IMG/VR virus record: IMGVR_UViG_3300032240_001151
Span: 26,113-90,112 of that record
Length of the DNA: 64,000 bases
Strand: one strand, 5' to 3'
Origin: a virus
In this document: piece by piece, positions 8,232 through 59,583 of the stretch
How positions within the stretch are numbered: the stretch's first letter is position 1
Layout of the letters: each line of letters opens with the position of its first letter
Made by a program: the position numbers and the translations under genes
The notes under the pieces: generated by a model
Told to the model about the DNA's origin: nothing
The model's input: only the letters and a program-made list of their open reading frames with translations
Databases searched by the model: none

Positions 8232-8245
8232 AATATTTATATATA
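8232..8245 (+). promoter_or_regulatory. Candidate phage late-type promoter box
   Basis: AATATTTATATATA lies 12 bases before the next start codon. The same box recurs upstream of about a dozen transcription-unit heads in this window. Its core TATTTATA is the exact reverse complement of the T4 late box TATAAATA. Promoter function is inferred from recurrence and placement. Confidence 0.4.
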
Positions 8246-9962: not shown

Positions 9963-12830
9963 ATGTCGGCATACAAACGTTTATATAAGTCAGATATATC
10001 TAACATTCCATATTTAGCAAATAAAAATTGGAGTGTCAGCGCATGTGATTTGGAGTCTTATGGAATTAGAGTATACAATGGAGTAAAAACCAGTAGTATA
10101 TTTGATTCTATAAACGATGTAAAAACAAATAATGAGTATGATAGATTGGTTTATCAATCGGTAAATCATCTATATTATCAAGAATTTTCAGGATCATTTT
10201 TAGACGATTCCTCAAATATAGCATCTCTAAACTATGCTAGTGCTTCAATTTATAGACCTTCCGGAGCTTATTATGACTATACTCCACAAGGGTACATGAT
10301 AAAATCCTTTCCAACAGGATCAAATGCCACTATAAAGGTATTATCCATATCTAAAGACGTATTTAGTAATTCTGTAAAACATTTATCCTTTAATATATCA
10401 ACATCCTTTATGAATTTACAGGATGATGGAAAAGGAAATATTTATGATACTTCAGTTATTGATACATTAGTTGGAAATATATTTTATGAACACGGACTCG
10501 TAATAATAACTAACCCAGATTACCAAAACATATTTCTTTTACCACCGTTTGCAAAAGACGATTATGCATCTTTTTCATCTTCCACAACTCCTAAATTAAT
10601 AAGTCCTTTATTAAACGACAATACTAGAGGATGGACTGCACTAACAGGGTCAATAGAACTATCAGGATCGGACGTTTCTTATTTTACTAATAATGGAAAT
10701 GGAACAGTAACACTAAATACAAGTGTAATAGGGACATATACTACACATTATAGATTTTCTACTAGCAGCTCTAGTAGTAATTGTATACTTAAGTCAAATT
10801 ATGCTAAAATAGAAAGCGTAGTTACTAAACCAATGTGTAATTTTATAGTGTATGCAATATATGTAGTACCAGCAACAGCTACTCCTACGCCAATACCAGC
10901 AACACCTACACCATTACCAGCTACAGCCACACCAACACCTTTACCAGCTACTATAAAATGGTGGAACTATGAACTACCTACTCCATTTGTAGACAGTGAT
11001 ATTGAGATAAATGGTACTACATATGCTGGAGGATATGATTCTGGATCATTTACTGTCGCAGCTAACACCAGTATTTTAGCAAAACAAAACTCTTCTACAT
11101 CAACAGAAGTACTAGGAGGGTATACATTTATTGTAAGAAATATAACAGATAGTACGGTACTGTACAATGCTACAACTACAGCAATAGTTTCTAGTTATAC
11201 AACTATGAACAATTATACGTTTACAGCGGTTGCAGGTAAGATATATGAAGTTTCTGCATCTACTTATAACTCTACTGGAGTATCTACACCAACACCAACA
11301 CCTACATCTACTTTAGCACCAGCTACAGCTACACCTACACCTACTAGAACACCAACACCTACACCTACTAGAACATCTACACCTACACCTACCTCAGCAC
11401 CAGCCACAGCTACACCAACACCTACACCTACCTCAGCACCAGCCACAGCTACACCTACTCCTACATCTACTTTAGCACCAACAGCAACAGCAACTCCTGT
11501 ACCAGCAACTGCTTGTTTCAGTGATTGGGTTGTTCAAGCAGGTAGTTATAGCAATGATTTAAGGATAACATCTACTGATATACAACTACACCCAGTAGGA
11601 ATGACCGGAACTAGCAACAGTCAAGACAGTACTGCAGATGGTTATATAACAGTAACTCCAGGATCTGAAAATATAAAAATATATTACGAAATATTTAACT
11701 ATAATATTACAAACCAAACTGGATCAATGTCTACATTGACTCTCGTTGGACAACAAGGGCAAGGTACATATAGTATAACACCATTTACAGTTAAGGGGTT
11801 AACACCTCCTAATAGTGGGTCATATATAACATTACCTCAAACAGGAAGTTATCATGCAACATTAGCAATTAGGTACCAATGGACAGGTACTGGTGGTGTT
11901 GATTCAAATAGTAGAGGTAGGATATATATTGACAATGCTGGAATTTGCCCAACATCTACACCAACCCCTACACCATTACCAGCTACAGCCACTCCTACAC
12001 CTACACCCATAGGAATAGCTTGCGGTGGTTCGACATTAACTGTGTCAACTAATGGGCTTGGAAGTTGCGCAACTCCTTCTATTCAGACAATAGCAATGAA
12101 TATGTCTGGCGCTTCTAATGGAGGTACAATTACTGTCCATTATGATGCTATTGATTATCCAAATAGATTTAATATATATGCTGATGGCTCATTAGTAACA
12201 ACTAGTGGTTGGGTAGGTCAAAATGCAACTAACTGTACAGGACCTTGGAATACTTTTGGAACATCAGCAGGAAATTTAGTATTCACATACGATAACACAA
12301 AAACTTATACAGTTAAAGTTGAACTTGCAGCACGTAATAGTGTTACAAATGAAACTTATCAATTGTATATGACATGTGCATCAGCTCCAACATCAACACC
12401 AATACCAGCAACTTCAACTCCTGTACCAGCTACTGCTACTCCAACTAGAACTTCTACACCAACTCCAACTAGAACTTCAACTCCTGTACCAGCTACTGCT
12501 ACTCCAACTAGAACTTCTACACCAACTCCTATACCAGCTACTGCAACTCCTATACCAGCAACTGCTACACCTATACCAGCAACGGCTACTCCTACACCAG
12601 TACCACAGAATAATTTTCAATATAGCGCTACGAGTTGTCTTACTGGAGGTAGTACTACATTAATAACAACAAGTGCATTATCTGTAGGAACTATATATAG
12701 ATCAGCACCATCAGGGATTTCTAATTGTTACACAATAACCGCTTTTATAACAATGACCTCAACAACAGCAAATTTTGTAGGATACGGTACTGTTTCTGAC
12801 TGTTTTGACTCAAACTGTACTCAGTTGTAA
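9963..12830 (+). CDS. Multidomain virion protein with mucin-like Pro/Thr linkers
   Basis: 955 residues. The N-terminal 290 residues are a Tyr/Ser-rich attachment region. Four Pro/Thr/Ala linkers follow at about 302-329, 441-514, 663-683 and 808-883, built of units such as ATPTPTPLP and TRTSTPTP. They separate small beta-sandwich domains of 75-150 residues. The layout is that of an extended fibre with flexible mucin-like spacers. Pro-flanked Thr runs are classic O-glycosylation acceptors, and the next gene begins a glycosyltransferase operon. The ATG at 9963 is chosen because the ATG at 9953 opens only 11 codons. Receptor-binding or decoration function is inferred. Confidence 0.55.
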   Translation: MSAYKRLYKSDISNIPYLANKNWSVSACDLESYGIRVYNGVKTSSIFDSINDVKTNNEYDRLVYQSVNHLYYQEFSGSFLDDSSNIASLNYASASIYRPSGAYYDYTPQGYMIKSFPTGSNATIKVLSISKDVFSNSVKHLSFNISTSFMNLQDDGKGNIYDTSVIDTLVGNIFYEHGLVIITNPDYQNIFLLPPFAKDDYASFSSSTTPKLISPLLNDNTRGWTALTGSIELSGSDVSYFTNNGNGTVTLNTSVIGTYTTHYRFSTSSSSSNCILKSNYAKIESVVTKPMCNFIVYAIYVVPATATPTPIPATPTPLPATATPTPLPATIKWWNYELPTPFVDSDIEINGTTYAGGYDSGSFTVAANTSILAKQNSSTSTEVLGGYTFIVRNITDSTVLYNATTTAIVSSYTTMNNYTFTAVAGKIYEVSASTYNSTGVSTPTPTPTSTLAPATATPTPTRTPTPTPTRTSTPTPTSAPATATPTPTPTSAPATATPTPTSTLAPTATATPVPATACFSDWVVQAGSYSNDLRITSTDIQLHPVGMTGTSNSQDSTADGYITVTPGSENIKIYYEIFNYNITNQTGSMSTLTLVGQQGQGTYSITPFTVKGLTPPNSGSYITLPQTGSYHATLAIRYQWTGTGGVDSNSRGRIYIDNAGICPTSTPTPTPLPATATPTPTPIGIACGGSTLTVSTNGLGSCATPSIQTIAMNMSGASNGGTITVHYDAIDYPNRFNIYADGSLVTTSGWVGQNATNCTGPWNTFGTSAGNLVFTYDNTKTYTVKVELAARNSVTNETYQLYMTCASAPTSTPIPATSTPVPATATPTRTSTPTPTRTSTPVPATATPTRTSTPTPIPATATPIPATATPIPATATPTPVPQNNFQYSATSCLTGGSTTLITTSALSVGTIYRSAPSGISNCYTITAFITMTSTTANFVGYGTVSDCFDSNCTQL
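11284..11505 (+). repeat. Pro/Thr/Ala-coding degenerate repeat
   Basis: Tandem hexamer-like repeats (ACACCT and ACTCCT variants) encode Thr-Pro and Ala-Thr-Pro units in the 955-residue protein. Similar tracts lie at 10867-10950, 11950-12010 and 12385-12610. Copies vary by synonymous changes, so the protein pattern is kept better than the DNA. Confidence 0.8.
12385..12610 (+). repeat. Pro/Thr/Ala-coding degenerate repeat
   Basis: The last and longest-period linker of the same protein. It alternates units reading VPATATPTRTSTPTP and IPATATP. Near-exact internal duplication (GTACCAGCTACTGCTACTCC occurs twice) suggests recent slippage or unequal recombination. Confidence 0.75.
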
Positions 12831-12862: not shown

Positions 12863-12870
12863 TATATTTG
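12863..12870 (+). promoter_or_regulatory. Bacteroidota-type -7 promoter element
   Basis: TATATTTG matches the Bacteroidota primary-sigma -7 consensus TAnnTTTG, 23 bases before the ATG of the first glycosyltransferase gene. The flanks TATATTTGCATATAA closely match the element ahead of the second sugar operon (54612). The -33 region is only weakly conserved (a GTTAAAA about 21 bases upstream). It suggests transcription by unmodified host RNA polymerase. Confidence 0.55.
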
Positions 12871-12893: not shown

Positions 12894-14147
12894 ATGGATA
12901 AAATATTTGTACAGATAGCTAGTTACAGAGATCCACAGCTAGTTCTCACAATAGATGACATGATGAGTAGGGCTAAACACCCTGAAAGGCTAACATTTGG
13001 TATATGTTGGCAATATGATGAAGAAGAAGATACTGAAATATTTGATGATAAACCAAATTTTCGTATAAAAAAATACCACTACACCGAAAGCGAAGGTTTA
13101 GGATGGGCTAGAAACGTTACTAATAGTCTATATGATGAGGAAAAATATACTTTACAAATAGATAGCCACCATAGATTTGTAGACGGATGGGATGATATAA
13201 TTATGGAAGATTATGCCCAGACTTTAGAAAAATCGGAAAAACCGATTATTACTACCTACTGTACCCCATTTGACCCAGAAGCTTGTAGATGTTCTTATGA
13301 AAGACTCCCATCATTAATGTCTCAGTATGAGTTTTCAGCAGATAAATTACTTATGAGTATGCCTTGGTATATTCAGGATTATCAGGAAAGAACTAAGGTA
13401 ATAAGAGCTAGAACTATCAGTGGACACTTTTACTTTGTAGATGGTAAGTTTATAGATGAAGTTAGATACGATCCTGACATTTATTTTGGTGGATACACAG
13501 AAGAAACAACTATGAGTGTTAGAGCGTTCACTCATGGGTATGATTTCTATAGCCCATACAGAATGGTAATGTGGCACGAATACACTAGAAATTACAGAAG
13601 AAAACATTGGGATGACCACGGATTAGAAAGCCAAACAAAAAAAACATCTGGGGAAAGAGATATATATGCTAGGAACAAGACTAGGCAATTGTTTGGACAA
13701 GAAGAGCATGGCATAGATATGGGAATATATGGATTAGGAACGGTGAGGACTTTACACGACTATGAGGTATATGGAGGGTTTGATTTTAAAAATTGCAGAA
13801 TACAAGACTATACTCTAAAGGTTAAAGAACCACCAAATCCAATAGATTGGGAAGAGCAGTTTAAAACTTATAAGTATGATGTTACAGTTGATTGGGATGT
13901 AGAATTTTTTAAGAAATTTGAATTTGAAAACCCTAAATTTTTAACACTAGGTATACAAACAAAATCTGGATTGGAATTATATAGGAAGGATTTTAAAATT
14001 GAAACAGAACCTGAGTATGTTAATCTAATAAATAATATGTACACAACTACTATAGATTCTCAAGATAAGCCTGATAAAATAGTAATGTACTTATTTGATG
14101 AAAATAAACAGTGGAGTGAAAGGTACGAAAAAGATATAAATGTATGA
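12894..14147 (+). CDS. GlcNAc-type glycosyltransferase (Skp1 GnT-like)
   Basis: 417 residues. Residues 1-290 match the PF11397-type fold of polypeptide N-acetylglucosaminyltransferases: an opening FVQIASYRDPQL, the metal-binding DSH in LQIDSHHRFVDGWDD, and GGYTEETTMSVRAFTHGYDF. Eukaryotic members add GlcNAc to hydroxyproline of Skp1; bacterial and viral members also occur. The last 120 residues look like a separate beta domain. It opens an operon of sugar enzymes and overlaps the next gene as ATGA. The acceptor is unknown; neighbouring Thr/Pro-rich virion proteins are candidates, as are host surface glycans. Confidence 0.75.
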   Translation: MDKIFVQIASYRDPQLVLTIDDMMSRAKHPERLTFGICWQYDEEEDTEIFDDKPNFRIKKYHYTESEGLGWARNVTNSLYDEEKYTLQIDSHHRFVDGWDDIIMEDYAQTLEKSEKPIITTYCTPFDPEACRCSYERLPSLMSQYEFSADKLLMSMPWYIQDYQERTKVIRARTISGHFYFVDGKFIDEVRYDPDIYFGGYTEETTMSVRAFTHGYDFYSPYRMVMWHEYTRNYRRKHWDDHGLESQTKKTSGERDIYARNKTRQLFGQEEHGIDMGIYGLGTVRTLHDYEVYGGFDFKNCRIQDYTLKVKEPPNPIDWEEQFKTYKYDVTVDWDVEFFKKFEFENPKFLTLGIQTKSGLELYRKDFKIETEPEYVNLINNMYTTTIDSQDKPDKIVMYLFDENKQWSERYEKDINV

Positions 14148-15280
14148 GAATACTATTTGTTGTAACAGGGAACGCCTCAAGAAGTAATTATGTAACTGGT
14201 CATAAGATGAGGTATGACAAAGCAGGGTTATCCGGAACTGATACCTCAAGTATACTCGTCGCAGAGTATTTAGCAAAGCAAGGTCATGAAGTTGTCATGG
14301 CAGTAGAAGAGTCAGATGATCATCTAAAAGAAGATAGACGCAAAAGAGGATATACGTTTAATCCAGGAAAAGAGATTGTAAATGGAGTAACCTATACATA
14401 CATACCTAGTTTAGAAGGTATAGAAGATACTGAGTTTGACATACTAATAAATTCATTATGGTTTGGTGAATATGATAGTTTGAATGCAAAAATAAAAAAA
14501 GGAATTTTTTATTGGTGTCATTTATCATGGGGATACTATACGGCAGAGTTAAAAGACTATGCAATTAAACATAATTTAAAAGTTGGGTATGTTAATATAT
14601 CAAAATGGGCTAGAGAACACCATTTAGAAAACATAAAATACTTAGAAGAAAATCTACCAACTGTATACGAAACAGTAATACCTAATCCAATGACACTAGA
14701 TGTAATGAAAGAAGTGTTGGATAAGAAATTAGAAAGAAAGCATAAAAAAGTAATATTTCCAGCCCAGTGGTCTAGAGGTGGTGATGTAGCTTTAAAAGCT
14801 GTAAAAGAATTAGGATGGGATGAAAATTTTGTAGCATTTGACTATGTTAATTTACAAAATGGAATAGATAAAGAAACTTTATTTACTGAACTTGCTACTA
14901 GCGATTATTTTATATTTCCACAATATACTCCAAATGAACATGTGTATAAAGATGTACACTCCTGCGCAATGGGTGAGGCATTAGGTATGGGAGTAGTGGT
15001 AGTATCATATCCTTTAGGATCTCACGAAGAGTACTATGGGAGTTATTATTATAAGCTAGATTTTCCTCCGGATATAGATATGGAAAAAATGATGAGGGAG
15101 AGGGTTACACATGAGCCAAAGATGGATTACATAGATAATATTGTAGAAAAAGTAAAACAGATAGAAGAAGACCTAGAAACAAAAGAAAGTATGAGAGATA
15201 AAAGTATTTCTTATATTTTTGAAAACTTTGACATAAATAAAATAGGCCCAATGTGGATTAATTTTATAAATAAATTTTAA
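14144..15280 (+). CDS. GT-B fold glycosyltransferase, GT4-like
   Basis: 378 residues with a two-Rossmann GT-B layout. The N-terminal half opens MRILFVVTGN, with a Gly/Ser-rich donor loop and AEYLAKQGHEVVMA. The C-terminal half contains VIFPAQWSRGGDVALKAVKE, FIFPQYTPNEHVYKDVHSCA and ALGMGVVVVSYPLGSHEEYY, the region where GT4 enzymes bind the nucleotide sugar and carry a conserved Glu. The start overlaps the previous stop by four bases, so it is translationally coupled to the GlcNAc transferase. Donor and acceptor cannot be told from sequence. Confidence 0.7.
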   Translation: MRILFVVTGNASRSNYVTGHKMRYDKAGLSGTDTSSILVAEYLAKQGHEVVMAVEESDDHLKEDRRKRGYTFNPGKEIVNGVTYTYIPSLEGIEDTEFDILINSLWFGEYDSLNAKIKKGIFYWCHLSWGYYTAELKDYAIKHNLKVGYVNISKWAREHHLENIKYLEENLPTVYETVIPNPMTLDVMKEVLDKKLERKHKKVIFPAQWSRGGDVALKAVKELGWDENFVAFDYVNLQNGIDKETLFTELATSDYFIFPQYTPNEHVYKDVHSCAMGEALGMGVVVVSYPLGSHEEYYGSYYYKLDFPPDIDMEKMMRERVTHEPKMDYIDNIVEKVKQIEEDLETKESMRDKSISYIFENFDINKIGPMWINFINKF

Positions 15281-15284
15281 AAAT

Positions 15285-15971
15285 ATGAATCCTTTTGATT
15301 TTTTTGATAAAATATTCTACATAAATTTAGAAGAAAGAACAGATAGAAAAGACCACATTGAGAAAGAACTGTCTAATTATGATATAAAAGCAGAGAGATT
15401 TCCAGCTATAACCTTATCTCCAGAACAAAATGAAAGTATTAGGCAAGACGGATGTTTTTTTAGAAATGACGAAAGACCTGAGCATGCCAGGTTTACTAAA
15501 TCTTGCACTCTGTCCCATCTTAGTGTAGTATTTAGAGCAAAATTGATGGGATATAAAAATGTTTTAATTTTTGAAGATGATGCAATGTTTCATAATACTA
15601 TTGTAGATGAGTTATCAAAAACAATAGAAGATTTAAAAACAATGGAAAGATGGGATATGTTTTATATAGGATGTAATCCATTAAGATACCAAAAAGTAAC
15701 CAATAACTTAGGAAGGTCATTAGGCGCATTATCAGCACATGCCTATGCAGTAAATAACCATTTTTATGATAAAATACTAAACATACCATTTAAACACTTA
15801 CCATCAACTGATTTGTACTATCATGATCTAGCGCTATCCCCACAAAATAATATATACATGGCTATTAAAAATTTGGCATGGCAAATGCCTAGCTATTCTA
15901 CTTTAGAAGAAATGGCAGTAGACTATTATCCATCAATACAAGCTAGATACGATAATAACATGGTAATATAA
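15285..15971 (+). CDS. Glycosyltransferase family 25 protein
   Basis: 228 residues, typical length for GT25 (LOS/LPS and collagen galactosyltransferase family). Diagnostic segments are IFYINLEERTDRKDHIE near the N-terminus, FTKSCTLSHLSVVFRA, and the metal-binding LIFEDDA at about residue 95. Family members usually transfer galactose or similar hexoses. It follows the GT-B gene by four bases and precedes the fucosyltransferase by two, so it belongs to the same operon. Confidence 0.8.
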   Translation: MNPFDFFDKIFYINLEERTDRKDHIEKELSNYDIKAERFPAITLSPEQNESIRQDGCFFRNDERPEHARFTKSCTLSHLSVVFRAKLMGYKNVLIFEDDAMFHNTIVDELSKTIEDLKTMERWDMFYIGCNPLRYQKVTNNLGRSLGALSAHAYAVNNHFYDKILNIPFKHLPSTDLYYHDLALSPQNNIYMAIKNLAWQMPSYSTLEEMAVDYYPSIQARYDNNMVI

Positions 15972-15973
15972 TT

Positions 15974-16747
15974 ATGAAAGTTACTTTTAGTAAACTTGGT
16001 ATATATGGACAATTAGGAAATCAAATGTTCCAATATGCCCTTTTATTAGGGATAAAGCATAAACTAAAAGTACCTATAGTAATAGATCCAGAAACAGTAA
16101 AAACTTCTTATTTATTTGAATTTTTTAATTTAGAAGAGTACATAGAAGAAACATTTAAACCAGATAATTTTTATAAAGAAGTTGAATTTTCATATAATAA
16201 AGAAGTTTTTGATATAAAAGAGGACACAGATTTTGAAGGATATTACCAGACAGATAAGTACTTTAAACATTGTTCCGATATAGTAAGAAAGGAGTTTACT
16301 TTTAAAGAAAATGTAGTAAAAGAGGTAAAACAGTATTTAGATAAATTAGAAGGTAAAAAATTAGTATCCCTACATGTTAGAAGAGGTAGTTATCTTGGAA
16401 ATACAGAATTTCATCCATTGTGCAAAATAGATTATTATAACAAAGCTATGGATTTATTAGACGATGGAAATACTGTTTTTGTATGTACATCTGATGATAA
16501 AGATTGGTGTGAAAAAAATTTAAATAGGAGTAATATACTATTTAACTTTAACAGTTTGATTTATGATATGTGCTTAATATCTAATTGTCATGATCATATA
16601 ATAGCAAATAGTAGTTTTAGTTGGTGGGGATCTTGGCTATCTGATAATCCGGATAAAAAGATAATAGCTCCAAAAACATGGTTTGGACCAGCAGCAAAGC
16701 ATCTTGATACAAAAGATATATATTGCAATAATTTTATAAAAATATAG
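15974..16747 (+). CDS. Alpha-1,2-fucosyltransferase-like protein, GT11
   Basis: 257 residues, slightly short for GT11. All hallmark motifs are present: GQLGNQMFQYALLLG near residue 15, HVRRGSY at about 135 (the GDP-fucose-binding HxRRGD/S motif), and NSSFSWWGSWLS near 218. It is expected to add L-fucose from GDP-fucose in alpha-1,2 linkage to a galactose. The neighbouring galactofuranose-precursor enzyme and GT25 gene fit a galactose/fucose glycan. No GDP-fucose synthesis genes are seen, so the donor would come from the host or from elsewhere in the genome. Confidence 0.85.
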   Translation: MKVTFSKLGIYGQLGNQMFQYALLLGIKHKLKVPIVIDPETVKTSYLFEFFNLEEYIEETFKPDNFYKEVEFSYNKEVFDIKEDTDFEGYYQTDKYFKHCSDIVRKEFTFKENVVKEVKQYLDKLEGKKLVSLHVRRGSYLGNTEFHPLCKIDYYNKAMDLLDDGNTVFVCTSDDKDWCEKNLNRSNILFNFNSLIYDMCLISNCHDHIIANSSFSWWGSWLSDNPDKKIIAPKTWFGPAAKHLDTKDIYCNNFIKI

Positions 16748-16748
16748 A

Positions 16749-17357
16749 ATGTTAATAACAGATTTAAAAAAGCATTTTAAAAAACCTCTTAAAGGGGCTG
16801 TACATATAGGAGCATTTCATGGAGAAGAAAAAGAGTGGTATACCGAAAATGGGATAAACCCTATTGTATGGGTAGAAGCTAATCCAAATTATGAAAATAT
16901 TTTAAAAGAAAGATATCCAGAAGATATAGTAATAATATCAGGAGTTGGAAACGAAAATAAAATTGCTACTTTTAATGTAGCAAATAATGGACAATCTTCT
17001 TCTTTTTTGAAAATGGGAACCCATTTAGAACAACACCCAAGCGTATTTTTTGTAGACACTATTGATGTTGAAATAAAACCAATGAAGCAAATTATACAAG
17101 AAAATAATATAGATATTAGTAAGTATAATTTTTTAAATGTTGATGTACAGGGTTATGAATTAGAAGTACTAAAAGGCTTTGAAGATATTTTGAACAGCAT
17201 GGATTACGTTTACTTGGAAGTAAACACTAATTATCTGTATTTAGAGTGTGCCTTAATAGAAGATATAGATCAGTATTTACAAAAGTATGATCTAAAGAGA
17301 GTAGAAACTCTTATTACCCCTAATGAGTGGGGTGATGCTTTATATATAAAAAAATAA
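16749..17357 (+). CDS. FkbM-family SAM-dependent methyltransferase
   Basis: 202 residues. The start AVHIGAFHGEEKEWY corresponds to the SAM-binding motif I. WVEANPN (acidic residue for the ribose) and FLNVDVQGYELEVLKGFEDI (the FkbM signature) follow in the expected order. FkbM enzymes commonly O-methylate sugars of glycans, which fits its place inside the glycosyltransferase operon, with single-base gaps on both sides. A second FkbM domain is fused to a glycosyltransferase at 54638. Confidence 0.8.
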   Translation: MLITDLKKHFKKPLKGAVHIGAFHGEEKEWYTENGINPIVWVEANPNYENILKERYPEDIVIISGVGNENKIATFNVANNGQSSSFLKMGTHLEQHPSVFFVDTIDVEIKPMKQIIQENNIDISKYNFLNVDVQGYELEVLKGFEDILNSMDYVYLEVNTNYLYLECALIEDIDQYLQKYDLKRVETLITPNEWGDALYIKK

Positions 17358-17358
17358 T

Positions 17359-18450
17359 ATGTACGATTATCTAATAGTAGGATCTGGTTTATATGGGTCT
17401 GTTTTTGCAAGAGAAATGACGGATAAGGGATATAAATGCCTTGTAATAGATAAACGTAATCATATAGGAGGAAACTGCTACACAGAAAATATAGATGGTA
17501 TAAATGTACATAAATACGGACCTCACATATTTCACACATCAGATAAAAAGATATGGGATTATGTGAATAGATTCGCTACGTTTAATAACTTTAGCTATAG
17601 GCCAAAAGTAAACTATAAAGGGAAGGTTTATTCTTTTCCTATAAATTTGATGACTCTATATCAAGTTTATGGGGTAACAACTCCGGATGAAGCTATTAGA
17701 AAATTAGAAGATGTAAAAGTTGATATACAAAACCCAAGTAATTTAGAAGAGTGGATTCTATCACAAGTAGGTCCTGAAATATACAATATATTCATAAAAG
17801 GATATACTAAGAAGCAATGGAAGAAAGATCCAAAAGAACTACCTACAAGTATTATAAGGAGGCTACCCATAAGAATGTCTTTTGATGACAATTACTACGA
17901 AGACACGTATTCAGGCATCCCAATAGGAGGATACACACAAATATTTGAAAAGTTACTAAAAGGCATAGAAGTGCGCTTAGATACTGATTATTTTTATAAT
18001 AGAGATTATTTTAACGATATTGCTAAAAAAGTAGTATATACAGGCCCCATAGATAGATTTTATTCATATATGCATGGAAAATTAGACTATAGGAGTCTTA
18101 GATTTGAAACTATGAATATTAACATGCCTGATTATCAAGGGGTTGCAGGTATGAATTATACTGATGAGGATGTTCCTTTTACTAGAATAGTTGAGCATAA
18201 GCATTTTGATTTTGGAAAACAAAAAAATACAATAGTAACTTTTGAATATCCAGAATCAAAAGGAGAGCCTTATTATCCCATAAATGATGATAAAAACAAC
18301 TCTATATATAGAAAGTACAAAGAAATGATGGACAAAGAGTCTGTATATATCTTTGGAGGTAGGCTGACGGACTATAAATATTATGATATGCACCAAGTTA
18401 TAGGATCTGCACTAACTAAAAGTCAGAAAGAAAATATTTATAATATATGA
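17359..18450 (+). CDS. glf: UDP-galactopyranose mutase
   Basis: 363 residues, the usual length. This flavoenzyme interconverts UDP-galactopyranose and UDP-galactofuranose. Visible signatures are the FAD-binding YLIVGSGLYGSVFA at the N-terminus, IDKRNHIGGNCYTE, HKYGPHIFHTS, FIKGYTKKQWKKDP, and the C-terminal YIFGGRLTDYKYYDMHQVIG. It supplies Galf for glycans made by the cassette. Its stop overlaps the start of the next gene (ATGA), a Thr/Pro-rich virion-type protein, so sugar synthesis and that protein are translationally coupled. Confidence 0.92.
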   Translation: MYDYLIVGSGLYGSVFAREMTDKGYKCLVIDKRNHIGGNCYTENIDGINVHKYGPHIFHTSDKKIWDYVNRFATFNNFSYRPKVNYKGKVYSFPINLMTLYQVYGVTTPDEAIRKLEDVKVDIQNPSNLEEWILSQVGPEIYNIFIKGYTKKQWKKDPKELPTSIIRRLPIRMSFDDNYYEDTYSGIPIGGYTQIFEKLLKGIEVRLDTDYFYNRDYFNDIAKKVVYTGPIDRFYSYMHGKLDYRSLRFETMNINMPDYQGVAGMNYTDEDVPFTRIVEHKHFDFGKQKNTIVTFEYPESKGEPYYPINDDKNNSIYRKYKEMMDKESVYIFGGRLTDYKYYDMHQVIGSALTKSQKENIYNI

Positions 18451-19235
18451 ATACCTATCAAGTTTTTATTTCTGGGGATGCTGGAGGTCCGTTTGATATA
18501 TACTACGACAGTGTATCAGTCGGAACTCAATTAGATACTGGCGTATCTAGAAGTAGTCTTTTGGCAGGGTATAATGTAAGTGGAATACCGGATTCAGCAA
18601 GCAGCATAATAGTATTTAATACAGATCCTGGGTGTAACAATTATGTTACATATTATATAAAACCGCCAACACCAGCTCCTACTGTAACACCTACACCAAC
18701 TCCTACACCAACTATAGTAGTGGATTGTTCAATGTCTGGAGGGTCTATAATACAAGCAACACCAACTCCAACCCCAAGCCCAACTGCTACTTCTGTAGTA
18801 ACAGCAACGCCAACAGCAACACCTAGTGCGACGCCTACAAGAACACCAACTCCAACACCTACAACTACTACTAATACTGTGACTGTGTACTTAAAAGGAA
18901 GGTATGCAACTGCATCCCCTCCAGATTTAGATTTGTTTTATAGAATAGATGGAGGTCCTGAGTGGAGCCTATATACAGGGTCACCATTTGCATTAACTAC
19001 TACAGCAACAGTGGTAACTCCTGGATTAGCTGTACCGGCAGGATTATCAGTAGAGTTTGCAGCCGTAGCCGCACATTCTGATAATGATGCAGTATTTCAT
19101 GGAGGATCTGCTGATGGGTATGTATATGGAGGTAGATGTGGAACAAATCTGCCTTATATAATAACTCCAACAACAGCTACATCTTGCTACATAAATGTAG
19201 ATGTAACAGTGGGAGGCGTAATAGAGATATGTTAA
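18447..19235 (+). CDS. Pro/Thr-rich virion-type protein, paralogue of the next gene
   Basis: 262 residues. The N-terminal 70 residues form a small beta domain with GPFDIYYDSVSVG and SRSSLLAGYNVSG. Two Pro/Thr linkers follow at about 73-92 and 104-144, then a C-terminal beta domain with Cys residues. The N-terminal domain is homologous to that of the next gene (GPFNIS, VSRSQLLAGYSV). It resembles short fibre or decoration proteins and has no signal peptide. The ATGA overlap with the UDP-galactopyranose mutase gene suggests that the product may be the mutase pathway's glycosylation target, which is an inference. Confidence 0.5.
   Translation: MNTYQVFISGDAGGPFDIYYDSVSVGTQLDTGVSRSSLLAGYNVSGIPDSASSIIVFNTDPGCNNYVTYYIKPPTPAPTVTPTPTPTPTIVVDCSMSGGSIIQATPTPTPSPTATSVVTATPTATPSATPTRTPTPTPTTTTNTVTVYLKGRYATASPPDLDLFYRIDGGPEWSLYTGSPFALTTTATVVTPGLAVPAGLSVEFAAVAAHSDNDAVFHGGSADGYVYGGRCGTNLPYIITPTTATSCYINVDVTVGGVIEIC
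18758..18880 (+). repeat. Pro/Thr-coding degenerate repeat
   Basis: A low-complexity tract encoding ATPTPTPSPTATSV and similar units within the 262-residue protein. It matches in composition the linkers at 11284, 12385, 19468 and 53807. Confidence 0.7.
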
Positions 19236-19254
19236 AAATAAATAGAAAGGTCTT

Positions 19255-20295
19255 ATGGCAACAAAATCAGTAACAGTAACAATAGCTAGTATAGGAGCTT
19301 CTGCAGGCCCTTTTAATATATCTGATGATGTATTAGGAGTAGTAGCAATGAATGTTAGCAGATCACAACTATTAGCAGGGTATAGTGTAAATATATCTAC
19401 CAGTGCTTCTGTTATTACTGTAACTTCTATCGGAACTTGTAGTACTTCGTTAAACATATACTTAGCAACTCCTACACCAACTCCAACACCAACAATAACT
19501 GCAACTCCTACTGTAACTCCAACTCCAACTCAAAATCCTATATATTTTGATAGTAACTTTACAAATACTAGCAATAATTGTGGAAGTGGAGGTAGAATAT
19601 GGTCTAGATTGATAGCCCCAGCAGGAACTACTGTAGAAGTAACGTTAACTTCTCAGCAATTTATAACAAGTGTAAACTCAGTAAGTGCGTCTATTTCTGG
19701 TACACTATACTTAACAACACTGCCTTCAGCAAATCCAACACCAGGAACAGTATTAACATCATCATATGCTAGTGTTAGTTATACAGATATACCTACGGTG
19801 TTAACAAATACACAAGTTACAACTCAAACAATTCCAGCAGCTGGGTATGTAGATGTTATGTTAATACATAGAACTCAAAATATAGCATCTAACTATTCAA
19901 ACGGTCAATCAACTGCTACAATAACAAAAGTAAACGGAGTATCTGTAAGCAATGGTGGAAGCCTTACAACAGGCTACAATTGTTCTGACACTACTTATTA
20001 TGAGTATATGATATCTCCTGTTGGGTATTCAAATTGCGGAGATGCGTGCGATTCCACTGTCTCAGTAACAACATCAGTGTATGCAACAGTATCATCAGAA
20101 GCTTTATTAACTGCGCAATATCTATATACTAGATCTGGTACAACATATACTTTATGGACTGGAGGAGATGGGCTATATCACCGAATAACTAAGGTAGGTA
20201 ACATGGGTTATGGATATTCTTGCGTTGTGATTCCTACAGGAAGAGTAGTATCAGTCAATGCATGTACTAGTGTAAGTCCTGGTACTTGTGCTTAA
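19255..20295 (+). CDS. Pro/Thr-linker virion-type protein
   Basis: 346 residues. The N-terminal domain (residues 1-70) parallels the preceding protein: GPFNISDDVLGVV, VSRSQLLAGYSV and a terminal C-x-x-x-L-x-I-Y-L. A Thr/Pro linker lies at about 72-94, then about 250 residues of Ser/Thr-rich strands with paired Cys residues (SNCGDACDS, GYSCVVIPTG). No membrane segment is seen. Tandem duplication of the N-terminal domain with a different C-terminal domain is typical of exchangeable receptor-binding or decoration proteins. The role is inferred. Confidence 0.5.
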   Translation: MATKSVTVTIASIGASAGPFNISDDVLGVVAMNVSRSQLLAGYSVNISTSASVITVTSIGTCSTSLNIYLATPTPTPTPTITATPTVTPTPTQNPIYFDSNFTNTSNNCGSGGRIWSRLIAPAGTTVEVTLTSQQFITSVNSVSASISGTLYLTTLPSANPTPGTVLTSSYASVSYTDIPTVLTNTQVTTQTIPAAGYVDVMLIHRTQNIASNYSNGQSTATITKVNGVSVSNGGSLTTGYNCSDTTYYEYMISPVGYSNCGDACDSTVSVTTSVYATVSSEALLTAQYLYTRSGTTYTLWTGGDGLYHRITKVGNMGYGYSCVVIPTGRVVSVNACTSVSPGTCA

Positions 20296-20608: not shown

Positions 20609-21043
20609 ATGTGGTTTTACAAAGGACAAGTTATAACAGACATCACACAATTCCCAGAAAATGCATACGGTTTTATATATAAGATAAAAAAGGTAGATGG
20701 TGAAAAATTTTATATAGGACGAAAGAATCTAATATCAGAACGTAGCAAACCTCTTACAAAAAAAGAATTATTAGAACATACTGGTAAAGGGAAAAAACCA
20801 ACTAAAAAGAAAGTAGTATCTGAAAGCGATTGGAAGACCTATTACGGCTCTAATGCTACGCTTAAGGCAGATATAAAGGAGTTAGGTAAAGAGGCTTTTA
20901 TCAGGGAGATATTGCACATATGTACCCATAAAAAACAGATGACATACCAAGAATTGAGGCATCAGATCATAAATGGGTGTTTAGAGTCTACAAACTGCTA
21001 TGTTGATAACATTCTCGGTAAGTTTTGGAGAAAAGATATTTAG
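20609..21043 (+). CDS. GIY-YIG-like nuclease-related protein
   Basis: 144 residues. The N-terminus reads YGFIYKIKKVDGEKFYIGRK, which matches the two spaced tripeptides of GIY-YIG domains (GFIYKI and FYIGRK). GSNATLKADIKELGKEAF then resembles the helix bearing the conserved catalytic region. T4-like phages carry many such proteins, some homing endonucleases (Seg) and some of unknown job. The protein is short and has no obvious DNA-binding tail, so it may be a degenerate or non-homing member. It directly precedes the primase gene. Confidence 0.6.
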   Translation: MWFYKGQVITDITQFPENAYGFIYKIKKVDGEKFYIGRKNLISERSKPLTKKELLEHTGKGKKPTKKKVVSESDWKTYYGSNATLKADIKELGKEAFIREILHICTHKKQMTYQELRHQIINGCLESTNCYVDNILGKFWRKDI

Positions 21044-47766: not shown

Positions 47767-49329
47767 ATGGCTACCTGGCTCCAGATAAATCCTCAGGATG
47801 GAAACGCTACGTATAATAATGTTACAGTATATAATACTATAATAGCTAACTCTATTAGTGGGTCTTTTACCGGATCTTATAGTGAAACTGACCCTATATT
47901 TGTATCTCAATCTGCTTCTTTAGCTACTACAGGGTCTAATATTTTTATTGGAAATCAATATATTACGGGATCAATATTAGTATCAGGATCAGCATATTTT
48001 CCTGGATTGACTAATTCGTCTCAATCAGGCATAGTAGTAATAGACCCAACTACAGGACAATTATACTATACTACAGGGTCCATATCAGGAACTAGTGGCA
48101 CCTCAGGAATAACTCCTTTGTACAATGGAACTTCTAGCAATTGTATAACTTTACCTTTAACATTATGCAATAATTCTGTTCCAATTTGTAACAATAAAGT
48201 TTTAGTATTCCAAGTATGTAATTCAAATTCAGAAAAAGACGATAATTTTGATGTATACCTAAATGGGGCATATATAGGGGCTTTAGATCTAAATTATAAT
48301 AGCCAAGTTGGTTCTGTTTTTATAGCAAATCTTGATCCGTTATTAGCAATAACAGAGCCTAATTTTGTATGTCCTATGGAGTTGATTCAAGTGTATAGGT
48401 TTAACCCTTTAATACTTAATAGCATCAATACAATTGAATTGAGAAATACTCAAAGTAATAATAATGGTAATTATGGAATAATAGGAGTTAGTAATTATGA
48501 AATATCCGGAAGTAGTTTAGTTAATCCATGCCAAATAGCTAACATAGAGTATTCAGGTAATACTGGACAGAGTTTTTTCTTAAATTTTGAATATCAAGAT
48601 TGTTGTGCAACACTACCTTCTACAATTGAAATTGATTTAGACACAAATATTAATGGGGCAGTTGTAACAATGTATCCATACTCAATAGATACTCAAAACT
48701 ATATTGTAGATTGGGGAGACGGTAGTCCTGTAGATGAAAGTACAACTGAATATTTTGTACATACTTATGAAAGTACAGGAAGTTATACAATAACTGTAAG
48801 TTTTGAAAATAAATTAATTTTATATGACATTGATTTATACAGCAATAATGGTGAAACATCTATATATGATATAAGAAATTTACGAGATTTTCAAGCTTTA
48901 AGAACTTTAACGCTTGATAATGTTGCTTTTAACATTGAGACTGTTCAAATGCCTATAAATTTAAGTTTGTTATATTTATACTTTTCTCAAATAGCAAATG
49001 TTGATTTAAGATCAATACCATCTTTAGTACAGGAAATTATTGAAGACAGTGAAATAGTCACATCTATTAATTCATCTGGCATTACAAATCTTGAGTTTAT
49101 TAGTATTATGGATTATTCTTTAACCCTACCTAATTTGACGTATGTAAATATTAATAACTGTGCAGTAGTTCAATCATCTATAGACAATTTATTAGTAAAT
49201 TTAGACTCTAATGGTCTTTCAAATGGTTATGTAACCGCCCTATCAGGATCTAATCAACCACCTTCTTCAACAGGATTGACTGCTAAAGCTAATTTAATAA
49301 GTAAAGGATGGACTGTGTTAACTAACTAA
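47767..49329 (+). CDS. Tail fibre with PKD-like and leucine-rich-repeat-like domains
   Basis: 520 residues. The N-terminal 110 are Ser/Thr/Gly strands with SISGTSGTSG, the same unit as the next fibre. Residues 120-300 form a beta domain with Cys pairs. Residues about 312-345 are PKD-like (VDWGDGSP, HTYESTGSYTITVSF). Residues 355-460 show leucine-rich-repeat-like spacing (LRTLTLDNVAF, LSLLYLYFSQIANVDL). PKD and BspA-like repeats are adhesin modules common in Bacteroidota, so the C-terminal half may be a host-derived receptor-binding tip. A fibre role is inferred from context and composition. Confidence 0.6.
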   Translation: MATWLQINPQDGNATYNNVTVYNTIIANSISGSFTGSYSETDPIFVSQSASLATTGSNIFIGNQYITGSILVSGSAYFPGLTNSSQSGIVVIDPTTGQLYYTTGSISGTSGTSGITPLYNGTSSNCITLPLTLCNNSVPICNNKVLVFQVCNSNSEKDDNFDVYLNGAYIGALDLNYNSQVGSVFIANLDPLLAITEPNFVCPMELIQVYRFNPLILNSINTIELRNTQSNNNGNYGIIGVSNYEISGSSLVNPCQIANIEYSGNTGQSFFLNFEYQDCCATLPSTIEIDLDTNINGAVVTMYPYSIDTQNYIVDWGDGSPVDESTTEYFVHTYESTGSYTITVSFENKLILYDIDLYSNNGETSIYDIRNLRDFQALRTLTLDNVAFNIETVQMPINLSLLYLYFSQIANVDLRSIPSLVQEIIEDSEIVTSINSSGITNLEFISIMDYSLTLPNLTYVNINNCAVVQSSIDNLLVNLDSNGLSNGYVTALSGSNQPPSSTGLTAKANLISKGWTVLTN

Positions 49330-49356: not shown

Positions 49357-52300
49357 ATGAGTTGTTCTTCTACATATTGCAATATAACAATCACCATATC
49401 TACTGGATTATCATACGTTACTGGTGATTATTTACTATTATATTGTGACAATTGCAACTCTATAAATGGTCAAGTTGTATCCTATGATTCTATTACTGGA
49501 CAATTAATATTACAACCAATATCATTCGAAGGTACTGGTTCATGTTGTAATTGGACAGTTAGTTTATCGGGAGCCCCAGGAAGCGTAGGCAGTTCTGGAT
49601 CTTCTGGTTCATCCGGATCTAGCGGTTCATCAGGTACTTCTGGTTCGTCTGGAACTAGTGGTAGTTCTGGTAGTACAGGAACGTCTGGTACTTCAGGCTC
49701 TACTGGCAGTTCAGGTTCTAGTGGATCTTCTGGAAGCACAGGAACATCAGGATCTACCGGTACAAGCGGTTCCACAGGTACTTCAGGAACTAGCGGAAGT
49801 ACAGGAACTTCTGGCTCATCAGGTACTTCAGGTTCTACAGGAACATCTGGTAGTAGCGGATCTAGTGGTAGTTCTGGAACATCTGGAAGTGCCGGCATAT
49901 CAGGAGACAGATACTTAACTTCTTCTACAAGTTCTATAGCTTTAGGAGTAGGAGGTACTATTACAGTAGAACAAAATTTAGCATATTCTGTTGCACAGAC
50001 AGCGTTAATAGCTTATGATACCACCCACTATCAAGAGGTGCCAGTAGTTTCATATAATCCATCTACAGGTGTTTTAGTCTATGGAACTCCTAGTTTAACA
50101 GTAGGAACAGGTACCTACTCATCTTGGAGAGTAAATTTAGCAGGTGCCAGTGGAGGAGATGGAACCTCAGGAAGTTCTGGATCTTCAGGTTCTAGCGGAT
50201 CTTCTGGTAGTAGTGGTTCAACAGGTACGTCTGGTAGTTCAGGATCTACGGGATCTAGTGGCTCAACCGGAACTTCTGGTTCGACTGGTTCATCAGGAAC
50301 CTCAGGCAGTACTGGATCATCCGGTACATCAGGAACTAGTGGGTCATCAGGTAGTAGTGGTAGTTCTGGCTCCACAGGTTCAAGCGGAAGCACAGGATCA
50401 TCTGGCAGCTCTGGATCAACAGGAACTTCGGGAACTAGCGGCAGTACAGGAACCTCAGGTACATCAGGAACTAGTGGAAATGGTTCATCAGGAACATCAG
50501 GTTCTACAGGAACATCAGGTTCTACAGGAACATCAGGTAGCTCTGGCAGCTCTGGATCAACAGGAACAAGCGGATCCACTGGTACTAGTGGTTCAACCGG
50601 TTCATCTGGTTCTAGCGGATCTTCTGGATCCTCTGGTACATCAGGTTCTTCCGGAACATCTGGAAGTTCTGGATCTACAGGAACGTCAGGAACCTCAGGT
50701 TCTACAGGAACGTCAGGTTCTACTGGATCTAGTGGTACTTCTGGTGTAAATGGATCTTTTGGAACTAGTGGAACTTCTGGATCAACTGGAACTTCAGGCA
50801 GTAGTGGAACAACAGGATCATCTGGATCATCAGGTTCTACTGGTACTTCTGGTTCTACTGGATCTAGTGGTACTGGAGGTAGTTCAGGGACTAGTGGATC
50901 GTCTGGATCAACCGGTAGTTCAGGTAGTACAGGAACTTCAGGTAGTACGGGGTCGTCTGGGTCTAGTGGATCTTCTGGTACTTCTGGTATAAATGGATCA
51001 AGTGGAACTAGCGGCTCGTCTGGTTCATCTGGAAGTTCCGGTACAAGTGGATCCTCTGGTTCTACTGGTAGTAGCGGATCTACAGGCACATCAGGAACAT
51101 CAGGTTCTACTGGTACTAGCGGTTCAACAGGAACATCAGGTTCTAGTGGAACAGGATTTAATACTATCAATAGCCCAGCTATTGGCAGAATATTATTAGC
51201 AGATAACTCTACTAATGCAGCAACTGCCTCAATTAGTATGAGCTTTAATAATGGAGTTTTATTAGTAACAGGAAGTATAACAGCTACTGGTAATATACAA
51301 GCTAACACTTTAATAGTACAAACTGTAAGTTCATCTGTAGTATACAGTAGTGGTTCAAATATATTTGGTAATGTTGTAACAAATACTCATCAATTTACAG
51401 GATCAGTATCGATAACAGGATCTTTAAGTATTGTAAATTTAAACATAAGCAGCAGCGCCAGTAAATTTGTAGTAGTAGATAATTTTGGTAAGCTATTCTA
51501 TACAACAAGTAGCGCAGCAGGATCTTCTGGTAGCGCAGGTTCATCAGGAACCTCAGGCAGTACTGGATCATCTGGTTCTACTGGATCAAGTGGATCAACA
51601 GGAACAAGTGGTTCATCAGGTTCTACAGGAACATCAGGAAGCACAGGTACGTCTGGTTCAACTGGATCTTCGGGCACGTCTGGTTCTGCTGGTTCTAGTG
51701 GAACTAGTGGAAATGGATCGTCAGGTACAAGTGGAACTACAGGAAGTTCTGGTAGTACAGGTACATCGGGCAGTTCAGGAACAACAGGTTCATCGGGGTC
51801 AACTGGTACATCAGGTTCTACAGGAACTAGCGGTACATCAGGCAGTACTGGATCATCTGGTTCTAGTGGATCAACAGGAACAAGTGGTTCATCTGGTGTT
51901 AGTCCCACTATATCAGGCACTGCTTACTATGTGCCAAGATATAATTCTACAGGCAATGCCTTAGAAAATACGACTGCCATGATATACAATAGTGGCAGTA
52001 ACGTAGGTATAGGAATTACTAGTCCGAATTATAATCTACATGTACACGGGTCAGGATCTACTCAATCTTATTTACAATTTACTACTACAAACACTGGTAC
52101 CGCAACTGCAAACGGATTTATAATAGGGGTAGATTCTACCAGTAAAGCTTATTTACTGAATAGACAGAATACAGATATGCAGTTTTATACTAATAATTCT
52201 GTACAGATGGTTATTCTTGCAGGAGGGAGTGTTGGTATAGGCACTACATCACCCGCAGAATTATTAACTGTTAATGGTAGTATATTTTTATCTGGAAGTG

Positions 52301-53052
52301 GTCGTAGTGTATGGTTAGGAAATAATGGTGATTCTCAACCTAGATTAAGACTGCATCACAATGGGACTGCGGCATACATAGATTATTCATCTAGTTTATA
52401 TATTAGAAATGGTACTCCTGATATAAAAGTAACTTTTGACCCTAATGGTAATGTTGGTATAGGTACTACATCACCAGGAACTACTTTAGATGTAGCAGGA
52501 ACATTATCATTTACCTCTGCTTCTTTAAGTGTTTCTTTTGCTAGAAGAAATGGTAACTATCATCAAATATTTGAACCAGCAGGTGGTATTGCAATTTATT
52601 TAGGTAATACTTCTGATCCTGGAAACTATTATGATAATACAAATCATAATTTTAGAAGTAGAGGAGGAGGTACTGTTTATGGATCAATAAACAGTTCCGG
52701 TACTTTAACAATGTTAGGAGATGTTATAGCTTATGGTTCTCCATCTGATATTCGTTTAAAAAATATTAAAGAGAAAGTACCTAACGCTTTATACTCTGTT
52801 CTTAAATTAAATGGATATAGATTTGATTGGAAAGAATCTGATTCAATCTTAAAAATAAAAGAAGACATAGGGGTCATAGCTCAAGAAATAGAAGACGTAG
52901 CTCCTGAACTAGTTAGAACTAATGAAGAATCAGGAATGAAAAGTGTAAGATACCAAGGTTTAACAGCTATACTAATTGAAGCAATAAAAGAACAACAACA
53001 ACAAATAAATAATTTACAAGAACAAATAAATAAAATAACAAATGGACATTAG
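49357..53052 (+). CDS. Tail fibre with Gly-Ser-Thr stalks and S74 self-cleaving chaperone
   Basis: 1231 residues. Two related small beta domains (1-71 and 183-262) alternate with G-T/S-S arrays at about 72-182, 263-599 and 722-847. A linker module at 600-720 contains ANTLIVQTVSSSVVY. A beta region follows with three VGIG(I/T)TSP repeats, the last two reading GIGTTSP. The C-terminus (1130-1231) is a peptidase S74 intramolecular chaperone: SDIRLKNIKEK, DIGVIAQEIEDVAPE, RYQGLTAILIEAIKEQ and a terminal coiled coil. S74 domains trimerise the fibre, then cut themselves off, here probably before Ser1130. The arrays are likely collagen-like stalks. Confidence 0.88.
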   Translation: MSCSSTYCNITITISTGLSYVTGDYLLLYCDNCNSINGQVVSYDSITGQLILQPISFEGTGSCCNWTVSLSGAPGSVGSSGSSGSSGSSGSSGTSGSSGTSGSSGSTGTSGTSGSTGSSGSSGSSGSTGTSGSTGTSGSTGTSGTSGSTGTSGSSGTSGSTGTSGSSGSSGSSGTSGSAGISGDRYLTSSTSSIALGVGGTITVEQNLAYSVAQTALIAYDTTHYQEVPVVSYNPSTGVLVYGTPSLTVGTGTYSSWRVNLAGASGGDGTSGSSGSSGSSGSSGSSGSTGTSGSSGSTGSSGSTGTSGSTGSSGTSGSTGSSGTSGTSGSSGSSGSSGSTGSSGSTGSSGSSGSTGTSGTSGSTGTSGTSGTSGNGSSGTSGSTGTSGSTGTSGSSGSSGSTGTSGSTGTSGSTGSSGSSGSSGSSGTSGSSGTSGSSGSTGTSGTSGSTGTSGSTGSSGTSGVNGSFGTSGTSGSTGTSGSSGTTGSSGSSGSTGTSGSTGSSGTGGSSGTSGSSGSTGSSGSTGTSGSTGSSGSSGSSGTSGINGSSGTSGSSGSSGSSGTSGSSGSTGSSGSTGTSGTSGSTGTSGSTGTSGSSGTGFNTINSPAIGRILLADNSTNAATASISMSFNNGVLLVTGSITATGNIQANTLIVQTVSSSVVYSSGSNIFGNVVTNTHQFTGSVSITGSLSIVNLNISSSASKFVVVDNFGKLFYTTSSAAGSSGSAGSSGTSGSTGSSGSTGSSGSTGTSGSSGSTGTSGSTGTSGSTGSSGTSGSAGSSGTSGNGSSGTSGTTGSSGSTGTSGSSGTTGSSGSTGTSGSTGTSGTSGSTGSSGSSGSTGTSGSSGVSPTISGTAYYVPRYNSTGNALENTTAMIYNSGSNVGIGITSPNYNLHVHGSGSTQSYLQFTTTNTGTATANGFIIGVDSTSKAYLLNRQNTDMQFYTNNSVQMVILAGGSVGIGTTSPAELLTVNGSIFLSGSGRSVWLGNNGDSQPRLRLHHNGTAAYIDYSSSLYIRNGTPDIKVTFDPNGNVGIGTTSPGTTLDVAGTLSFTSASLSVSFARRNGNYHQIFEPAGGIAIYLGNTSDPGNYYDNTNHNFRSRGGGTVYGSINSSGTLTMLGDVIAYGSPSDIRLKNIKEKVPNALYSVLKLNGYRFDWKESDSILKIKEDIGVIAQEIEDVAPELVRTNEESGMKSVRYQGLTAILIEAIKEQQQQINNLQEQINKITNGH
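49570..49902 (+). repeat. Gly-Ser/Thr-coding array 1
   Basis: About 111 codons of (Gly-[Ser/Thr]-Ser)n. Serine is written with TCT, TCA, TCC, TCG, AGT and AGC in mixed order, so the periodicity is in the protein and much less in the DNA. Confidence 0.85.
50143..51153 (+). repeat. Gly-Ser/Thr-coding array 2
   Basis: About 337 codons of Gly-x-Ser units, with rare interruptions (GNGSSG, GVNGSFG, GTGGSSG, GINGSSG). The absence of stops on other frames produces long antisense open frames. Confidence 0.85.
51520..51897 (+). repeat. Gly-Ser/Thr-coding array 3
   Basis: About 126 codons of the same type, with one GNGSSG interruption, just before the receptor-proximal domain. Confidence 0.85.
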
Positions 53053-54611: not shown

Positions 54612-54619
54612 TATATTTG
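54612..54619 (+). promoter_or_regulatory. Bacteroidota-type -7 promoter element
   Basis: TATATTTG fits TAnnTTTG, 18 bases before the ATG at 54638. The extended block TATATTTGCACATAA nearly repeats the element before the first sugar operon (12863). A T-rich TTTTAAA sits about 20 bases upstream in the -33 position. Confidence 0.55.
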
Positions 54620-56599: not shown

Positions 56600-56601
56600 G
56601 T

Positions 56602-59532: not shown

Positions 59533-59583
59533 TTATATTTATATAAGCCTATATAGGCCAGCGAAAGCTGCGTGTAAATACAC
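59533..59583 (+). promoter_or_regulatory. Late-type box followed by three tandem leader hairpins
   Basis: TTATATTTATATAAG (59533-59547) is a copy of the recurring box. Three self-complementary elements follow without gaps: GCCTATATAGGC (59547-59558), CAGC-GAAA-GCTG with a GNRA-type loop (59559-59570), and GTGTAAATACAC (59572-59583). The fibre ATG is at 59600. The structured leader may stabilise the message or tune translation of the giant fibre. Confidence 0.55.

Follow-up and report, generated by a model that had tools for sequence, protein, structure and literature searches.

We describe two operons of sugar-modifying enzymes in a 64,000-base stretch of viral DNA (the window; bases 26113-90112 of the 90,112-base IMG/VR record IMGVR_UViG_3300032240_001151). 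Both are situated among structural genes and alternate with genes for proteins bearing low-complexity stalks. Cassette A (12894-18450) encodes GT60, GT4, GT25, GT11, FkbM and Glf proteins and is bordered by genes with Thr/Pro-rich (TP) tracts. Cassette B (54638-59505) encodes GT4-FkbM, GT6-like and GT4-TibC proteins and is followed by a tail fibre gene with collagen-like G-X-Y triplets whose X and Y positions are occupied almost exclusively by Ser or Thr (G-S/T tracts). Across genomes, GT60 genes pair with TP tracts and TibC-type genes with G-X-Y tracts. These sequence patterns suggest that the phage probably O-glycosylates its own virion proteins through two channels, each specific to one kind of tract. 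An earlier note on this DNA had proposed that the phage glycosylates its fibre and decoration proteins; the co-occurrence, adjacency and two pairings reported here favor that proposal on comparative grounds.

The specificity of the pairings is seen in gene order. A TP gene adjoins GT60 in 15 of 27 dereplicated loci, against a null expectation of 4.2, and none of 2000 random placements gave a count as high. Likewise, a G-X-Y gene adjoins TibC in 16 of 53 loci (null 6.1). The cross-pairings occur at chance levels: TP genes stand beside TibC in 1/53 loci (null 0.8) and G-X-Y genes beside GT60 in 0/27, on which count a link between GT60 and collagen-like tracts was rejected.

Two sugar-enzyme cassettes alternate with stalk genes

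The open reading frames (ORFs) of both cassettes and of the stalk genes are all open at the window coordinates below, and the enzyme families were matched by Pfam, TIGR and PHROG models, upholding the alternating layout described in the earlier note. Among the stalk genes it named, long tracts are present in 9963, 18447, 49357, 53607 and 59600, whereas 19255 has only a short one.

9963-12830, + strand: virion stalk protein with four Thr/Pro/Ala tracts (TP 218/955 residues), directly upstream of cassette A
12894-14147, + strand: GT60 polypeptide N-acetylglucosamine (GlcNAc)-transferase-like enzyme (PF11397, 1e-59)
14144-15280, + strand: GT4-type glycosyltransferase, recurrent GT60 partner (weak Pfam match, 0.0005; PHROG glycosyltransferase, 2e-10)
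15285-15971, + strand: GT25 glycosyltransferase (Pfam, 1.5e-15)
15974-16747, + strand: GT11 fucosyltransferase-like enzyme (Pfam, 2.5e-27; phrog_2644, 5e-75)
16749-17357, + strand: FkbM-type methyltransferase, predicted to O-methylate glycans (Pfam, 7e-16)
17359-18450, + strand: UDP-galactopyranose mutase (Glf), supplying UDP-galactofuranose (UDP-Galf) (Pfam, 2e-75; TIGR00031, 364 bits, cut-off 304)
18447-19235, + strand: TP-stalk protein, 43/262 residues in tracts, in the same operon as Glf
19255-20295, + strand: Ser/Thr-rich (31%) protein with a short TP tract (27/346 residues)
49357-53052, + strand: tail fibre with 192 perfect G-X-Y triplets; its C-terminal end resembles, by eye, an S74-type chaperone
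53607-54572, + strand: TP-stalk protein, 106/321 residues in tracts
54638-56599, + strand: fusion of GT4 and FkbM domains (Pfam)
56602-57423, + strand: GT-A glycosyltransferase with a GT6/ABO-like fold (no family match; predicted structure; both Asp of the DxD motif invariant)
57424-59505, + strand: fusion of GT4 and TibC/AAH-type protein O-heptosyltransferase domains (TIGR04414, 271 bits; TibC part about residues 350-691)
59600-64000, + strand: tail fibre with 128 perfect G-X-Y triplets, directly following the TibC-type gene and extending past the window end

The first product of cassette A matches PF11397 with 203 bits, against a curated cut-off of 21. Within its LQIDSHHRF segment, D90, H92 and F95 are invariant among 14 homologues; the conserved DSHHRF motif, of DxH/DxD type, is presumably the metal-binding site. 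An initial family probe with PF03016 gave no match. We predict from these features that the enzyme is the initiator acting on Thr of TP tracts, and that the GT4-type enzyme, whose gene start overlaps the end of 12894, would extend the glycan chain. At the far end of the operon, the start codon of stalk gene 18447 overlaps the Glf stop (ATGA). Homologues of 9963, whose TP tracts are in some cases larger and in others smaller, immediately precede GT60 in loci L006, L007, L013, L024 and L026. The Thr/Pro tracts occur in four proteins of the window and contain almost no charged residues. The prolyl hydroxylase family PF13640 had no match in this record (G000, probably a fragment) nor in 27 of 30 GT60 records. 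Skp1-like glycosylation of hydroxyproline was therefore rejected as a model, and Thr is the likelier acceptor.

In cassette B, the TibC-type assignment applies to the C-terminal half of the 57424 fusion, which exceeds the TIGR04414 equivalog cut-off of 200 bits and aligns with TibC (4rap) over 341 residues (6e-46). All four iron-finger cysteines (TibC Cys339, 342, 358 and 370) are aligned in 57424, and the motif is found in 68/79 phage homologues. The catalytic Asp (TibC Asp110) is also kept (LGDTLAWFPY); the same place is occupied by Ala in 4rb4, the inactive D110A mutant of TibC (PMC4358343). The structure predicted for 56602 is of moderate quality (pLDDT 65, TM about 0.45), so the label 'GT6/ABO-like' is a hint at the fold; that the GT11 and GT6-like enzymes build a blood-group-like cap is speculation. 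The G-X-Y tracts of 49357 and 59600 both have Ser or Thr at almost every X and Y position and are nearly free of proline. No autotransporter repeat was found in 49357, which matches collagen-like and tail fibre models, nor in 59600, the fibre gene adjoining the TibC-type gene, which was scanned with PHROGs only. Directly upstream of 49357 lies a gene (47767-49329) for a fibre-like protein that has a PKD domain but neither TP nor G-X-Y tracts. A TibC-type domain (TIGR04414, 321 bits) is also present in an ORF of the Microcystis phage Mel-JY01 (PP395634.1, 4750-8430; L005) that is annotated as an FkbM methyltransferase only; that genome lacks the G-S/T pattern.

Enzymes and tracts recur together across virus genomes

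An IMG/VR scan with the GT60 protein returned 42 loci, in which the GT60-GT4 pair recurs across differing genome backgrounds, usually with Glf and variably with GT25, GT11 and methyltransferases. The pattern TPTPTP was present in 37/43 GT60 records and the reversed pattern in 2/43. We compared these with a backbone set of 44 records, for which backbone genes and length were the only criteria; it comprises two cultured phages and every contig of 30 kb or more. In it, GT60 occurs in 6/44 and TPTPTP in 10/44. Within this set alone, TPTPTP accompanies GT60 in four of six records, as opposed to 6/38 records without GT60 (p=0.018). Setting the 37/43 against the same 6/38 gives a Fisher value of 9e-11, for sets that were sampled differently. 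The reciprocal test agreed, with GT60 in 10/40 contigs selected for TP tracts and in 0/30 reversed-pattern controls (p=0.002). The backbone set also links TibC to its tract: G-S/T tracts occur in 2/4 TibC-positive and 0/40 TibC-negative records (hypergeometric 6/946 = 0.006, by hand). A search for co-occurrence in related genomes, proposed beforehand, thus found enzymes and tracts associated and sharpened the association to two pairings.

By tblastn, the only cultured phages with a relative of this GT60 are XacN1, CM1 and RAS14. XacN1 and RAS14, the two searched whole, have 29 and 19 TPTPTP matches, respectively.

Plain phmmer matches among TP proteins were discounted because the tract inflates them. 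In a tract-masked comparison, the TP proteins beside GT60 formed at least six groups without detectable mutual similarity. On the GT60 tree, having a TP neighbor requires six changes, at least three of them forced by well-supported branches. The recurring element is therefore the tract rather than any particular protein. In three loci (L258, L272 and L277), GT60 and TibC-type genes are close together, with a TP-stalk gene between them in L272 and L277.

Bacterial GT60 genes also have Thr-Pro neighbors

A single-sequence search for cellular GT60 proteins found none, and an alignment-based search found 221. TP-tract neighbors were present at 7/76 bacterial GT60 loci (null 2.6, p=0.003), and four of these seven neighbors begin with twin-arginine-like signals. 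In one further genome, GT60 is accompanied by a TP protein of this kind. These genes possibly constitute a mucin-like system. Substrates of the twin-arginine translocation (Tat) pathway are exported folded, so a soluble cytoplasmic enzyme could act on them before export; we regard this as a lead, not proof. In loci L321, L334, L318, L386 and L644, bacterial GT60 lies beside Ser/Thr-Pro-rich proteins with twin-arginine-like N-termini, and in L321 two GT60 genes flank one such gene.

A model for tract-specific glycosylation

We infer the donor sugars, acceptor residues, order of steps and biological role as follows. Both cassettes would work in the cytoplasm of the host, modifying freshly synthesized fibre subunits either ahead of assembly or while it proceeds. 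GT60 would place the first sugar, probably GlcNAc, on Thr of the Thr-Pro stalks; the GT4, GT25 and GT11 enzymes of cassette A would extend the glycan, with Glf making UDP-Galf and FkbM methylating the product. In cassette B, the TibC-type domain would place a heptose-like sugar on Ser/Thr of the nearly proline-free, collagen-like tracts, the fused GT4 domains and the GT6-like enzyme would extend it, and FkbM would again methylate. The result may be stiff, hydrophilic, protease-resistant stalks, or shielding.

Several observations weigh against this model. Relatives with the enzyme and without the stalks exist as a minority: six GT60 records (G012, G013, G016, G026, G037 and G041) lack TPTPTP, although several of these are fragments; two are shorter than 15 kb, one of them with a distant homologue only. 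Conversely, G044 and 30/40 of the TP-selected contigs are TP-rich without GT60; such phages may be served by another transferase, or by none. Among TP-selected contigs, GT60 was no commoner where the tract lies in frame (8/32) than otherwise (2/8), and the filter perhaps failed to sharpen the link because the stored loci are short. On the TibC side, the adjacent G-X-Y fibres are nearly all one homologous group, making the link less independent, and the known substrate of TibC is a beta-helix rather than a G-X-Y tract. Lastly, the sugar operons are preceded by TATATTTG, not by the TATTTATA motif of the structural genes, and this host-type element before both operons could mean early expression and another target.

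Alternative explanations

The virion proteins may instead be glycosylated mainly at other sites, such as capsid, tail tube or fibre tips, the tract genes being mere neighbors in exchange hot spots. Fibre and sugar genes do share a variable adsorption module, and in mycobacteriophages it is the C-terminal ends of capsid and tail tube subunits that bear glycans (Freeman 2023, as cited in PMC12619734). Under hot-spot linkage no specificity is expected; the observed pairs, however, are GT60 with TP rather than G-X-Y tracts and TibC with G-X-Y rather than TP tracts. Moreover, bacterial chromosomes with GT60 also have TP neighbors above chance. We consider this explanation unlikely.

Remodeling of host lipopolysaccharide (LPS) or capsule, for superinfection exclusion or progeny release, seems to us slightly less probable still. 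LPS and capsule loci commonly contain members of the GT11, GT25, GT4, GT9 and Glf families, and the arrangement of promoter-like elements would allow the enzymes to be early:

12863-12870, + strand: TATATTTG, matching TAnnTTTG, before cassette A, with no late-type motif here
54612-54619, + strand: TATATTTG, of TAnnTTTG type, before cassette B
59536-59543, + strand: TATTTATA, late-promoter-like motif, before fibre gene 59600

We take TAnnTTTG to be the consensus of the Bacteroidota -7 promoter element. The cassette A copy of TATATTTG is also present in L006 and L007, at -30/-31. Overall, TAnnTTTG is not enriched between genes (3/59 copies intergenic, about 1.5 expected), so that the reading as a host-type promoter depends on the two sites and on conservation in some relatives. 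By comparison, 13/16 window copies of TATTTATA fall in the 1,587 intergenic bases, upstream of structural genes (at 8234, 22555, 24176, 27818, 29924, 33187, 35084, 40381, 43386, 44099, 44105, 47724 and 59536). TATTTATA, the reverse complement of the T4 late element TATAAATA, is a probable late promoter. Making the enzymes early would be appropriate if they have to await their substrates, but equally if they act on the host surface. Against the latter, the GT60 and TibC initiators come from protein-directed families; none of the sugar enzymes in either cassette has a membrane-helix-like hydrophobic stretch (top 19-residue hydropathy 1.4); and no flippase, polymerase or lipid-linked initiator was found among the identified cassette genes. 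Remodeling of the host surface also leaves the tract-specific pairing unexplained.

T4-style decoration of modified phage DNA bases is very improbable, for although the structural module is T4-like and phage glycosyltransferases often act on DNA (as cited in PMC12619734), the FkbM, Glf and TibC-type functions and the fibre-side operons misfit such a role; no search aimed at base-modifying enzymes was made, and most of the early region is missing from the record.

Relation to known glycosylation systems

Glycosylation of the phage's own stalks has counterparts elsewhere. Protist GT60 enzymes start mucin-type O-glycans, and a relative has cytosolic Skp1 as its substrate (PMC8724618). Those acting on Trypanosoma cruzi mucins and in Dictyostelium (Golgi and Skp1) share with the phage enzyme PF11397, Thr/Pro-rich mucin-like acceptors (here candidates) and a fucosyltransferase in the pathway; the Skp1 enzyme is soluble, as the phage GT60 is predicted to be. 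The phage system differs in its operon, its GT11, Glf and FkbM partners and the prolyl hydroxylase that was not found. TibC and AAH, BAHT enzymes, are protein heptosyltransferases (PMC4358343). Like them, 57424 scores over the TIGR04414 cut-off, keeps the iron-finger Cys and the Asp, and is encoded directly upstream of the candidate substrate gene; unlike them, it is fused to GT4, and the candidate substrate is a collagen-like G-S/T fibre rather than an autotransporter beta-helix.

In Clostridioides difficile, SgtA adds O-GlcNAc to Thr of the collagen-like GPT repeats of BclA3, and sgtA is directly upstream of bclA3 (PMC7157674). Cassette B similarly places a soluble transferase gene, of TibC type, directly before a collagen-like protein gene, and the BclA3 precedent concerns a triplet Thr. 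SgtA is by description a GT-A enzyme and not TibC-type, and BclA3 triplets contain proline, while the phage triplets contain hardly any. Proline-poor collagen-like proteins encoded by Mimivirus are glucosylated by L230, which differs in its hydroxylysine acceptor, its fused lysyl hydroxylase and its eukaryotic giant virus setting (PMC9614988).

At least two virion glycoproteins have been detected in the Xanthomonas phage XacN1, with ORF328 and ORF334 proposed as their source and the sites unmapped (PMC5852040); ORF334 is the GT60 homologue (35.5%). XacN1 thereby lends the model indirect support from experiment. XacN1 and the mycobacteriophages thus share with the phage studied here phage-encoded glycosyltransferases and glycosylated virion proteins, the latter predicted here from genes. 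Virion glycosylation by phages is already known; its two-channel, tract-specific form would be new, and we found no earlier description of the two-enzyme, two-tract pairing in the literature surveyed.

More broadly, and tentatively, at somewhat less than even confidence, we suggest that phages own two tract-specific O-glycosylation systems, GT60 for mucin-like TP stalks and a TibC-type enzyme for proline-poor G-S/T tracts, in which glycosylated Thr could stabilize the fold as hydroxyproline does in animal collagen, and that the GT60-TP system also acts on bacterial Tat-exported proteins. Metagenomic phage fibres repeatedly contain low-complexity TP and G-S/T tracts, for which there is usually no explanation. 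Should such tracts be dedicated substrates of glycosylation, part of the 'moron' glycosyltransferases of environmental phages would be virion-building genes, and phage fibres would bear sugars encoded by the virus, with effects on adsorption, stability and recognition. A class of likely substrates could then be assigned to bacterial and viral members of the GT60 family, and the cassettes would offer soluble, genetically simple tools with which to carry out mucin-type and collagen-type glycosylation in bacteria.

The record, its backbone and its likely host

The 90,112-base record is probably a fragment, as the nearest cultured relative, Flavobacterium phage immuto, has 160 kb, and the early region lies mostly outside the record. 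The structural genes follow a T4-like order, as in immuto, and the terminases are 48.5% identical. This kinship, the low G+C of the window (34%) and the Bacteroidota-type promoter-like elements suggest a Bacteroidota host. Immuto lacks GT60, TibC, TPTPTP and the G-S/T pattern, and all four therefore come and go within this backbone. A literature search for proteomics of immuto found nothing.

A small gene in the window (20609-21043) belongs to a PHROG family labelled NAD synthetase, as in immuto, and also matches homing endonuclease families, leaving the label doubtful. Upstream of the window in the same record, and outside both cassettes, L001 9528-10978 and L002 4232-4888 encode a GT2 glycosyltransferase, a calcineurin-like phosphoesterase and a methyltransferase (PF13578, below cut-off). 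Between L001 12920 and L002 2723 lie tandem genes, several of which share the N-terminus GNKSQVGKKQ-KSFLQP, with repeats that resemble leucine-rich repeats.

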